Assembly: GCA_015068565.1 (NCBI GenBank)
Contig: SVKG01000005.1
Location: 1 to 32,514 of the forward strand
Direction: 5' to 3'
DNA from: Oscillospiraceae bacterium
GTDB taxonomy: Bacteria > Bacillota > Clostridia > UMGS1810
DNA length: 32,514 bases
Made by a program: the position numbers and the translations under genes. The notes under the pieces are model-generated. The model was not told where the DNA came from. It saw nothing but the letters and a program-made list of their open reading frames with translations, and searched no databases. Numbering within the stretch: position 1 is the stretch's first letter; the number at the start of each line of letters is the position of its first letter. Of the stretch, positions 26,029-30,136 are shown one piece after another.

Positions 26029-27795
26029 ATGATGGGTATACGCGACATCGTCAGTTTGCTTGGCGGACTGGGATTGTTTCTCTATGGTATGAACACCATG
26101 GGTGACGGTTTGGAGAAATCCACAGGCAAGGGGATGCAGCGTATTATCGAGGCCCTTACAGGCAATGTAGTCAAGGGTGTTCTGGTAGGTCTTGTTGTAA
26201 CTGCGCTTATACAGAGCAGTTCTGCCACTACTGTTATGGCGGTAGGCTTTGTCAATTCCGGAGTTATGACTCTCACTCAGGCAGTGGGAATTATATTCGG
26301 AGCAAATATAGGTACAACCGTCACTGCGCAGATACTCAGGTTATCCGATATACAGGGAGTAGGTATACTTTCTTTTTTTAAAACGGACTTTCTCGCACCG
26401 GCGGCAATAGCGGCAGGTGCGGGATTTGTTATGTTCGGCAAAAATAAGAGGATAAAAAACCTCGGTCAGATTTTTATGGGGTTCGGTATTCTTTTTATAG
26501 GAATGGATGTGATGGAGGAGTCAGTTTCCGGCATAAAGGACAAGCCATGGATTGGTGCCGCTTTTTCATCAATGGGTAAAATCCCTGTGCTGGGCATAGC
26601 CGCGGGTACAGTAATAACAGCACTTTTGCAAAGCAGTTCTGCTTCTGTGGGGATTTTACAGGCGTTGGCGGCGGGGGGTGTGATATCCGTAGCCTCTGCC
26701 GTGCCTATTATACTGGGGCAGAACATAGGCACTTGTGTTACTGCAATTATATCGGGTATCGGCGCCGAAAAAAATGCCAAACGCACTGCGGCAGTGCATC
26801 TTATGTTCAATGTGTTGGGCGTATTTCTGGCAACTGTTGTTATTTACGGATTCAACAGTATAGCGGGAATACCGGGATGGAACGATCAAATCACCCGTGG
26901 CGGTATAGCGGATTTCCACACGGTGTTCAATCTGCTCAATGCATTGGTTCTTTTGCCTTTCAATAAACTCCTTGTCCGTATTGCATATATTTTTGTGCCC
27001 GAGAAAAGCGATACAGATAACACTCCCTATAATCTGCTGGAAGAAAGACTGTTGCAGACACCGTCGGTTGCAATAGGTCAGTGTGTACGGATGCTCATTT
27101 TCCTGATGAAGACAGCGCTTGATAATTACCGTAACTCGACAGGAATGATTTTTGATAACGGCAGACACATCAGTGATAAACTCCAACGTGTGAGCGAAAC
27201 GGAAGAAATCATAGACATAGGCGAGTCGGAATTGACACAGTATCTTGTAAGAGTGAGCGAGAAAGACCTGTCTGCCGGTGAGAATAATACGGTGTCTGGT
27301 ATGTTTCATATTATCACCGATGTGGAAAGGATAGGGGACTGTTCGGTTAATATAAGTGAGATTGCGGAATATATGTATGAAGTTTCTGCAACGTTTTCCG
27401 ACGATGCGGCGGAAAAACTTAAAAATATGATGTCCGCCGTTGACGAGGTAATTCGTCTGTGTATCAGGGCGTACGAGGATGACGATATTGAATCGGCACA
27501 GAGGATACAGCCTTTGGAGGCGGTGGTAGATGTAATGAGAACCGATTTGCGGCAGTACCATATAAGCAGTCTTGTTGGGCAGAGGTATGATTTCAGGCTT
27601 GGTGTTGCCTTCCTCGATATTGTAAATAATTTAGAGCGTATATCCGACCATTGCTCCAATATCGGTATGGCGGCAGAGCAAAGACTTCGGTCGGCAACCT
27701 TTGACCCCCACGAGTATACCAAAAACCCCGACATAATAAATACACCCGAATATAAGCGGTTGTATAATGAATATAAGACTAAATACTGTAATTAA
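26029..27795 (+). CDS. Na/Pi cotransporter family protein with C-terminal PhoU-like domain
   Basis: Duplicated QSSSATTVMAVGFVNSG / QSSSASVGILQALAAGG motifs, GxNIGTTVTA / GQNIGTCVTA, C-terminal helical PhoU-like region. Confidence 0.94.
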   Translation: MMGIRDIVSLLGGLGLFLYGMNTMGDGLEKSTGKGMQRIIEALTGNVVKGVLVGLVVTALIQSSSATTVMAVGFVNSGVMTLTQAVGIIFGANIGTTVTAQILRLSDIQGVGILSFFKTDFLAPAAIAAGAGFVMFGKNKRIKNLGQIFMGFGILFIGMDVMEESVSGIKDKPWIGAAFSSMGKIPVLGIAAGTVITALLQSSSASVGILQALAAGGVISVASAVPIILGQNIGTCVTAIISGIGAEKNAKRTAAVHLMFNVLGVFLATVVIYGFNSIAGIPGWNDQITRGGIADFHTVFNLLNALVLLPFNKLLVRIAYIFVPEKSDTDNTPYNLLEERLLQTPSVAIGQCVRMLIFLMKTALDNYRNSTGMIFDNGRHISDKLQRVSETEEIIDIGESELTQYLVRVSEKDLSAGENNTVSGMFHIITDVERIGDCSVNISEIAEYMYEVSATFSDDAAEKLKNMMSAVDEVIRLCIRAYEDDDIESAQRIQPLEAVVDVMRTDLRQYHISSLVGQRYDFRLGVAFLDIVNNLERISDHCSNIGMAAEQRLRSATFDPHEYTKNPDIINTPEYKRLYNEYKTKYCN

Positions 27796-27797
27796 AA

Positions 27798-27828
27798 AAG
27801 GAGACACTTCGTATAGAGGTGTCTCCTT
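27798..27828. terminator. terminator downstream of Na/Pi cotransporter gene
   Basis: AAGGAGACACTTC-GTATA-GAGGTGTCTCCTT, one G-U in a 13-bp stem; flanking A and T tracts. Confidence 0.85.
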
Positions 27829-27850
27829 GATATTTGTCTTTGTATTTCAG

Positions 27851-27894
27851 CGATTAAGTTTTTTAAGCATCAGCATAGCGGCTTGTTGCGCAGC
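27851..27894. repeat. direct repeat copy 1: displaced rnc 3'-end fragment
   Basis: 27854-27889 (TTAAGTTTTTTAAGCATCAGCATAGCGGCTTGTTGC) is identical to 29457-29492. On the minus strand it encodes AAQQAAMLMLKKLNR* (stop TGA at 27847-27849). Confidence 0.95.
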
Positions 27895-27899
27895 ACTGC

Positions 27900-28760
27900 T
27901 TATTTTTGATAGTTGCTTATAGCGGCGGCAATCATTCCATCGAATGTATTTAAATCCTGGGGTTCGCCGTTTATATCAAAATAATTCAATTGCCATTCCA
28001 ATGTGCTTTCCGTTTCGTTTGTAATCAGGTATTGCACTTTGACTTTTACATCGTTTTCCTGATAGAGGCATTCTCCTGTGAATTCAACTGTTTCTTTCCC
28101 GTCTTCACCCGTGAAATGTTTCCAAGTCGGGTTTGAAAAAAAGTCGTTAAAAATTTCTTTGTGGGTGTGCTCACTGTCGTTCAATTTGGTTGCTTGTATT
28201 GTTTCCACATATACATCATAACTGTCTGATTCCGTATTGTTTTCAGGCAACGATGATACTGAGCAGACAATCAAAATTATCGACAAAATAGCGAATATGT
28301 TTGTAAGTTTTGTTTTTCCCGAAACAGAGTTTATGATTTTTTCGTTATCAGAATCGGTATCAGCACTCCCGCTTATATTTTTGAAAATAGCATCGAATTC
28401 ATTTGCCATCTTCATTTTAGGTACAATTTTCATCCATGCCAATAACCTGCCCACACGACTTAATCTGATATCATATTTAACGAGTTCACATTTTACGCGG
28501 CCATTTTCAAGATAAAAAAGGTGAGTGCCGGTGTTTCCCGTAACCTCAACCTGCCCTGACGAATTAACAATAGTTCCTTTTATCAAATCAGAACACGTTT
28601 CAACAATTTTGTTTTTCAATTCTTCCGGCGATGATAATTCGGTGGGGATACCGTCACGGTATTTGTTGCCGATTAGGTCAAGAAATTTTGTTCCCTTAAA
28701 GAGAACGATGTGAGATAATACTGCACTGATTATCAATGCGAGCAAACCAATTAAAATCAT
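27900..28760 (-). CDS. two-TM protein with C-terminal extracytoplasmic domain, unknown function
   Basis: N-terminal TM (MILIGLLALIISAVLSHIVLF), internal TM (LTNIFAILSIILIVCSVSSL), C-terminal EIFNDFFSNPTWKHFTGEDGKETVEFTGECLYQENDVKVKVQYLI. Confidence 0.8.
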   Translation of the reverse strand: MILIGLLALIISAVLSHIVLFKGTKFLDLIGNKYRDGIPTELSSPEELKNKIVETCSDLIKGTIVNSSGQVEVTGNTGTHLFYLENGRVKCELVKYDIRLSRVGRLLAWMKIVPKMKMANEFDAIFKNISGSADTDSDNEKIINSVSGKTKLTNIFAILSIILIVCSVSSLPENNTESDSYDVYVETIQATKLNDSEHTHKEIFNDFFSNPTWKHFTGEDGKETVEFTGECLYQENDVKVKVQYLITNETESTLEWQLNYFDINGEPQDLNTFDGMIAAAISNYQK

Positions 28761-28791
28761 ATGTAATTACTCCTTTGAAAATTAATAACGG

Positions 28792-28977
28792 TTATCTGAC
28801 AAAAATTTTTTTAATAATTGCGACAGGGATAAGGATAATCCCCAAAAGGCAGCCCACAATTAACCTTGTTAAAAACAAGTCATTGGCTGCACCTATTCTT
28901 ATTCTGTTCGCATAGATTGTTTGGCCGGCTGCCCAATAACCCAGAACAGCATAGCCAATAATTAATACAACTTCCAT
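28792..28977 (-). CDS. small two-TM membrane protein (61 aa)
   Basis: MEVVLIIGYAVLGYWAAGQTIYANRIRIGAANDLFLTRLIVGCLLGIILIPVAIIKKIFVR; GGAGG upstream on the minus strand. Confidence 0.75.
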   Translation of the reverse strand: MEVVLIIGYAVLGYWAAGQTIYANRIRIGAANDLFLTRLIVGCLLGIILIPVAIIKKIFVR

Positions 28978-29023
28978 TTTTACATTCCTCCAAAATTTGA
29001 TTATGAATATTGTTTACTTGAAG

Positions 29024-29052
29024 AGTATAACATATATCCAAGAATTACGCAA
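29024..29052 (-). promoter_or_regulatory. promoter for the islet's minus-strand genes
   Basis: Minus strand: TTGCGT (29052-29047), 17-bp spacer, TATACT (29029-29024). Confidence 0.6.
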
Positions 29053-29065
29053 GTGCGTATACGCA
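29046..29065. promoter_or_regulatory. overlapping palindromic operator
   Basis: TACGCA-AG-TGCGTA (29046-29059) overlaps the perfect palindrome TGCGTATACGCA (29054-29065). Confidence 0.65.
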
Positions 29066-29108
29066 AAAATGTAAAATATTTTAAAATATTTTTGTGGGGT
29101 GTTTTAAA

Positions 29109-29351
29109 ATGGATGTAAAAGATGCGGTAGTAAAAAGATTTAATGAATTGTGTGCAAGAAAAAACATTAGAATAAATGAACTTGCAAACATATCCGGAGT
29201 GACGCCATCAACAGCATACAGTATGATGGATAAATCACGCCGAGATGTTTCAATAAAAACAATCAAGAAGTTTTGTGATGGCTTGGAGATAACGTTGGGA
29301 GAATTTTTTTCAACGGAGGATTTTGATAATCTTGACCAGGAGATAAGATAG
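29109..29351 (+). CDS. XRE (Cro/CI)-family HTH regulator
   Basis: MDVKDAVVKRFNELCARKNIRINELANISGVTPSTAYSMMDKSRRDVSIKTIKKFCDGLEITLGEFFS; start trimmed to ATG 29109. Confidence 0.92.
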   Translation: MDVKDAVVKRFNELCARKNIRINELANISGVTPSTAYSMMDKSRRDVSIKTIKKFCDGLEITLGEFFSTEDFDNLDQEIR

Positions 29352-29395
29352 TGCTGCCATCAAAAGCGAGAGAAAAAGCGGCAATAAAAAACAAG

Positions 29396-29423
29396 AAGGC
29401 AGAAACGGATACGTTTCTGCCTT
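29396..29423. terminator. terminator between HTH gene and rnc (convergent)
   Basis: AAGGCAGAAACG-GATA-CGTTTCTGCCTT perfect 12-bp stem; on the minus strand followed by CTTGTTTTTT. Confidence 0.88.
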
Positions 29424-29449
29424 TAAAAAAATTTTAATACAATTTACAT

Positions 29450-30136
29450 TTATCGGTTAAGTTTTTTAAGCATCAGCATAGCGGCTTGTTGCTCGGCTTT
29501 TTTCTTGCCAAGGCCCTGTGCTGTAACCTCCTGTTTGCCGTTGTAGTTAATTGCCACGGTGAACACCTTCTCATGTTCGGGGCCGTCCTCGCGTATAACA
29601 ACATAGTTTAACTTGTCCCCGTGGGAGGTCGCATATTCGTGGAGTCTGCTTTTGTAGTCGGGATTGTTGTCACTGTTTTTGACTGCATTTTTAATAGAAT
29701 CTTCAAGGTGATAAAGAATAAACCGCTGGGCTGTATCAAAGTCAGAGTCCAGATACACCGCGGCAAACACCGCTTCTGTAACATCGGAAAGTATTGACGG
29801 CTTGTTTTTGCCGCCCGACATTTCCTCGCCTTTTGACATAAAAATATACTCTCCCAGGCCAATCTTTTCGGCTATGGCGAACAAACCCGCTTCGCAAACT
29901 ACAACAGCCCTGATTTTGCTCATTTTACCCTCGTCAATCAGCGGATAATTTTTATAAAGATAATCCGATGATACCGCTTCTAAAATGGCATCTCCCAAAA
30001 ATTCGAGTCTGTCGTAACTTTCTTTTGATTTGCCGTGCGATTCGTTAAGGAAAGAACGGTGTGTAAGCGCCGTTGTAAGTAACTTGCGATCTTTAAATGT
30101 ATATCGTATTTTTCTTTCCAGTTCGTTTAAGTTCAT
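29450..30136 (-). CDS. rnc: ribonuclease III
   Basis: YDRLEFLGDAILEAVSSDYLY signature, C-terminal dsRBD (DYKSRLHEYATSHGDKLNYVVI...GLGKKKAEQQAAMLMLKKL). Confidence 0.97.
   Translation of the reverse strand: MNLNELERKIRYTFKDRKLLTTALTHRSFLNESHGKSKESYDRLEFLGDAILEAVSSDYLYKNYPLIDEGKMSKIRAVVVCEAGLFAIAEKIGLGEYIFMSKGEEMSGGKNKPSILSDVTEAVFAAVYLDSDFDTAQRFILYHLEDSIKNAVKNSDNNPDYKSRLHEYATSHGDKLNYVVIREDGPEHEKVFTVAINYNGKQEVTAQGLGKKKAEQQAAMLMLKKLNR
29454..29497. repeat. direct repeat copy 2: resident rnc 3' end
   Basis: 44-bp alignment to 27851-27894 with three mismatches, 36 bp identical. Confidence 0.95.

Follow-up and report, generated by a model that had tools for sequence, protein, structure and literature searches.

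A 1.6-kb islet without an integrase at the 3' end of rnc, probably inserted by gene-end-restoring recombination

How can a short block of foreign-looking DNA come to lie between two copies of the end of a housekeeping gene when it encodes nothing that could have put it there? This question is raised by the rnc (RNase III) locus of an Oscillospiraceae bacterium, which we studied in a window of 32,514 nucleotides (the whole stretch of DNA analysed). The answer that we consider probable is that the islet was inserted by gene-end-restoring, conservative site-specific recombination of the tyrosine-recombinase kind, and that it is now an orphan resembling the cis-mobilizable elements known as CIMEs. 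The features on which the argument starts are:

29450 to 30136, minus strand: rnc (RNase III), intact (Pfam Ribonucleas_3_3 and dsrm; open reading frame list), with its last codons within the islet-proximal repeat copy
29457 to 29492, minus strand: 36-bp core, copy in the intact rnc (attL-like), from the repeat comparison
27854 to 27889, minus strand: 36-bp core, orphan copy (attR-like), from the repeat comparison; the displaced rnc end including its stop codon is 27847-27889
27890 to 29456, no strand: islet between the core copies, a unit of 1,603 bp with one core counted; GC 35.3% over 27895-29453

The first-pass annotation had reported that the rnc 3' end occurs twice in the same orientation with 36 identical bp, and this was confirmed: the core (TTAAGTTTTTTAAGCATCAGCATAGCGGCTTGTTGC) lies at 27854-27889 and at 29457-29492, with an offset of 1,603 bp between the copies. 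A 49-nt alignment around them (27846-27894 with 29449-29497) is 90% identical. The orphan fragment is where it had been placed, but its exact start is not 27851, since with its stop codon it begins at 27847. Compared over 45 bp, stop codons included, the two rnc ends hold four differences, three of which fall in the last codons and are synonymous, as had been claimed: AAC CGA TAA in the resident gene versus AAT CGC TGA in the fragment (on the reverse strand, TAA is at 29450-29452 and TGA at 27847-27849).

The repeat cannot be attributed to chance, because a 26-bp piece of it has just two occurrences in the genome and no further match even when 3 mismatches are allowed. Within 971 kb of the genome, we identified no second gene whose 3' end is duplicated in a direct repeat of 22 bp or longer; most of the few other direct repeats in this length class belong to genes that are tandem or repetitive, or are short and noncoding. 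One contig (C14; L150, 6928 and 7751) carries a 76-bp direct repeat, seemingly noncoding and palindromic, around a small lipoprotein-like gene with ~0.8 kb spacing. In 73 relatives, the last 90 bp of rnc were compared with up to 15 kb of downstream sequence (5-15 kb for most) and no duplicated rnc end was found; nothing exceeded 15 bp exact or 20 bp at 95%, versus the 36 bp of the present repeat (E 3e-16). Exact and degenerate scans of IMG/VR gave no match to the core, which contains no significant inverted core-type repeat (25% of shuffles reach the same level).

The way in which the two copies differ is informative. All three mismatches of the 44-bp stretch lie within its last 8 bp, an arrangement with p ~0.004 if a plain duplicate had mutated later. 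Judged from the sequences, this one-sided cluster is a better fit to recombination between diverged sequences than to copying followed by mutation. It thus weighs against a local event, with duplication of the rnc end in situ (by slippage, transposition or replication error) and separate arrival of the intervening genes. A single observed locus is compatible with two events, and Y1/REP-type transposase-like proteins were seen by eye beside the helix-turn-helix (HTH) gene in two other genomes (L224 and L226), yet this history calls for one site to have been hit twice independently, and the islet has neither a transposase nor terminal inverted repeats joining its two ends. We regard such a history as quite unlikely. 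An assembly artefact is more improbable still. The genome is a fragmented draft, probably metagenome-assembled (87 contigs, 84% complete), with GC shifts at the islet, and unrelated contigs might have been joined at the 36-bp repeat; this requires, however, two independent false joins at one 36-mer, nor would a false join alone explain why the codons past the identical core exist in a second, diverged version.

If the islet was inserted, rnc should have had another neighbor before, and this neighbor is found on the far side of the islet:

26029 to 27795, plus strand: Na/Pi cotransporter with a PhoU domain (Pfam), convergent neighbor, directly adjoining rnc in a congener (congener locus)
27798 to 27828, plus strand: terminator of the Na/Pi transporter (terminator scan), presumably common to rnc before the insertion
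29396 to 29423, minus strand: terminator supplied by the islet and now serving rnc (terminator scan)

Both terminators had been called at first pass and do exist. An empty site with rnc convergent with the Na/Pi transporter had also been predicted, and the congener G001 has it: dac-acp-rnc is followed by the convergent Na/Pi transporter and glutamine synthetase, with no islet and ~150 bp between the rnc and transporter stops. G001 offers the one assembled rnc locus for this comparison, as the assembly of the second congener, G002, is without rnc. In another member of the family (G015), a transporter homologue comes directly after rnc in the same direction, again without the islet. No other element was found at the rnc 3' end among the 73 relatives, and a search of genome contigs with rnc returned no close relative.

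Core identities place the insertion in time. G001 and the window agree at 28 of 36 positions, versus 36 of 36 for the two copies in the window. As far as sequence can date it, the duplication of the rnc end is recent, younger than the split from G001, because a fragment free of constraint would probably have accumulated changes had it already existed then; a loss of the islet in G001 is therefore argued against. The corresponding alternative, vertical inheritance of an islet ancestral to the genus and lost in the congener, could appeal to the single sequenced congener locus. It must explain, though, how a fragment under no constraint is still 36/36 although the gene itself differs from G001 at 8/36, why G015 has rnc beside the transporter, and why the two cargo genes c286 and c61 are missing from nearly all family members, and we give it very little credence.

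The composition of the islet is foreign as well. A comparison of 27895-29453 with its flanks, suggested in the first-pass annotation, gave 35.3% GC, the lowest value among windows of equal length in the 32.5 kb (mean 42.5%, sd 2.5) and within the lowest 0.9% of 8,459 windows of the genome (971 kb). Three open reading frames are held between the repeats:

27900 to 28760, minus strand: c286, 286 aa, with two hydrophobic, likely membrane segments (by eye); no Pfam, NCBIfam or padloc family
28792 to 28977, minus strand: c61, 61 aa, a small, probably membrane protein with one homologue
29109 to 29351, plus strand: HTH_26 regulator of the Cro/CI type, start ATG 29109 (Pfam PF13443, E=2e-9)

None of the three matched integrase, transposase or relaxase families, which bears out the earlier claim that no integrase lies between the repeats, and the islet has no recognisable transfer gene. 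Two further candidates fail on the structure of the islet: a DDE transposon insertion, given a duplication of at least 36 bp of coding sequence and no terminal inverted-repeat pair, and an autonomous tyrosine-recombinase island (IME/MGI), given that 27890-29456 is without an integrase. Elsewhere in the genome the sole PF00589 match is a C-terminal tyrosine-recombinase fragment at a contig end (L042 8589-9014, contig C10). With no further match of this family, the assembly seems to lack Xer recombinases. The fragment lies near a spoIIR-like gene (named by eye). No serine recombinase was found in the genome, no Rfam family in the region, and no match in IMG/VR for any of the three islet proteins.

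We propose that the islet arrived as a DNA circle of 1.6 kb, or as a larger element later reduced by deletion, on which a copy of the rnc 3' end was already present. This circle (attP) would have recombined at the 36-bp core with attB in rnc, joining the upstream sequence of rnc to the last codons and the terminator of the islet (29396-29423). The gene would have kept its reading frame, stop and terminator because the incoming copy supplied all three, and the old end would have been displaced to the far side of the islet, where it faces the 27798-27828 terminator. The recombinase may then have been lost, or may have acted from elsewhere, leaving an orphan islet in whose cargo a regulator would control the divergent membrane-protein genes through an operator-like site of its own. 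Tyrosine-recombinase islands have repeats of 8-60 bp and commonly target the 3' ends of housekeeping genes (PMC5704250); the 36-bp repeat falls within this range. We infer the recombinase mechanism, past mobility and the regulation of the cargo, the recombination step having this standing because the 73 relatives yielded neither a recombinase nor a parental element, nor another case of rnc serving as the target. Thus, of the 3'-end-restoring integration first suggested for this locus, the insertion at the rnc 3' end, the empty site, the composition, the recent duplication and the missing integrase stand, and the site-specific recombinase and mobility stay putative.

The main rival is a Campbell-type insertion, in which a circle with a chance fragment of the rnc 3' end entered through the identical 36 bp, by recombination that was RecA-dependent or relied on short homology. 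The outcome would look alike, with a repeat, a restored 3' end and the old end displaced, and the absence of an integrase is as expected when none is required; moreover, rnc shows no sign of recurrent use as an integration site. On the other hand, with 36 bp homologous recombination would be working close to its minimum length, and it would be a coincidence for the circle to bring precisely the last codons in frame together with a stop and a terminator, a combination typical of elements that carry an att site. We therefore hold this route to be unlikely, if less so than the other alternatives, and retain site-specific recombination as the preferred reading.

Both membrane-protein genes of the cargo are rare and patchy in relatives, and nearly all family members are without them. 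c286 has a C-terminal domain common to lipoprotein-like secreted proteins, which is present in 7 of 392 genomes of the class (this one included). The protein gave only insignificant matches in PHROGs, no match in phages and, among plasmids, just a weak partial match in Eubacterium eligens; its structure predicted without an alignment has a pLDDT of 46. Relatives of the c286 domain in G002 (L039 7118-11988) and G063 (L040 1974-8806) have kinase-like, zinc-ribbon and HTH proteins as cluster neighbors, and the G063 cluster has a serine recombinase-like protein nearby, at a contig end. For c61, a single homologue was found in the relatives searched (G014, 59% identity).

The regulator has a different distribution. 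We favor the start at ATG 29109 over GTG 29094 because its homologues begin at the same MDVKD. It is 79-85% identical to proteins in other genera and families (G012, G014, G058, G009, G139 and G101), whose rnc genes are ~39-47% identical to that of the window, and this discrepancy shows lateral spread of the HTH gene. Comparison of the upstream regions of the HTH loci points to two further features:

29046 to 29065, plus strand: conserved operator-like site TACGCAAGTGCGTATACGCA, ~43-63 bp before the HTH start (upstream comparison across HTH loci)
29024 to 29052, minus strand: divergent promoter for c61-c286 (by eye), TTGCGT 29052-29047, 17 nt, extended TGT-TATACT 29029-29024

With at most one mismatch, the 20-bp operator-like site occurs in 12 of the 392 class genomes, once in each, and the reversed pattern in 0; it has no match in IMG/VR. 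Where the position of the HTH gene is known (G000, G009, G012, G014, G058, G101 and G138), the site lies just before it. The divergent promoter, which a consensus promoter scan did not list, overlaps this site, and a similar layout is seen by eye upstream of homologous HTH genes. From this arrangement, the HTH protein may repress the divergent promoter through the operator-like site.

What lies on the divergent side varies among the HTH loci (L219-L232). It is c61-c286 in the window, a SLOG-family gene in Monoglobus (L219, annotated), SLOG-like genes in Subdoligranulum (L220), G138 (L231) and perhaps G042 (L229), and a zinc-ribbon protein gene at L223, the last two kinds recognized by eye. At further loci the divergent genes are unassigned. 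The L220 HTH homologue (46%) has a tyrosine-integrase-like protein (by eye) at a distance of ~2 kb. In G058 and G139, which belong to different families, a protein resembling REP-associated Y1 transposases directly follows the HTH gene:

L224 1755-2264 and L226 974-1486: Y1-transposase-like proteins after the HTH homologue (by eye)

Repeats around the other HTH loci were examined within 1.5 kb. In G101 (L227, 466 and 1799), a direct repeat of 100 bp plus 41 bp flanks the HTH-operator unit and its divergent gene; it is hairpin-rich by eye and not a gene end.

These loci point to a regulator and operator that travel as one module and differ in cargo from family to family, and the 20-bp site together with the HTH gene provides a search handle for more islets. 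A bolder idea is that the islet belongs to a family of small integrase-less cassettes (conserved regulator and operator, swappable divergent cargo) that spread among families of Clostridia through recombinases borrowed in trans, the rnc 3' end being one landing site; we consider this doubtful.

Mobile elements carry divergent repressor-operator switches of the Cro/CI type. The islet is similar in having an HTH gene and an operator-like site that overlaps a divergent promoter, and it differs in that one HTH-operator pair stands beside unrelated divergent genes in different genomes. With IMEs and ICEs that use tyrosine integrases (PMC5704250) it shares direct repeats in the 8-60 bp range, one of them spanning a gene end, and an undisrupted target gene; unlike them, it has no integrase and no relaxase. 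MicroCIMEs (130-220 bp; PMC7563491) are, like the islet, residual att-flanked fragments, whereas the islet keeps three genes.

The closest parallel is with the classical CIMEs of Streptococcus salivarius, elements of 1.2-13 kb without integrase or transfer genes that have kept their att repeats (PMC7563491). Since integrase-less, att-flanked islands at gene ends have thus already been described, the missing integrase is not new in itself. The "unrecognised class" of mini-islet considered at first pass gains no support. The islet differs from CIMEs in its target, rnc, in being known without a parent ICE/IME, and in not lying in tandem with an active element. No such parent was found in the rnc flanks of the 73 relatives, in IMG/VR (three proteins) or in phages (c286), and no report of rnc, an RNA-processing gene, as an integration site was found in the literature searched (open-licence papers only). 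What it shares with CIMEs is the size, a cargo without integrase or transfer genes, direct repeats (putative att sites) at the 3' end of a conserved gene, and an rnc reading frame left intact with its stop and terminator. We say that it works like a CIME because it has these structural features; by this analogy it is probably a CIME itself, with putative descent from an ICE/IME and putative mobilisation, and represents a clear, relatively datable orphan gene-end islet outside the streptococci in which CIMEs were described.
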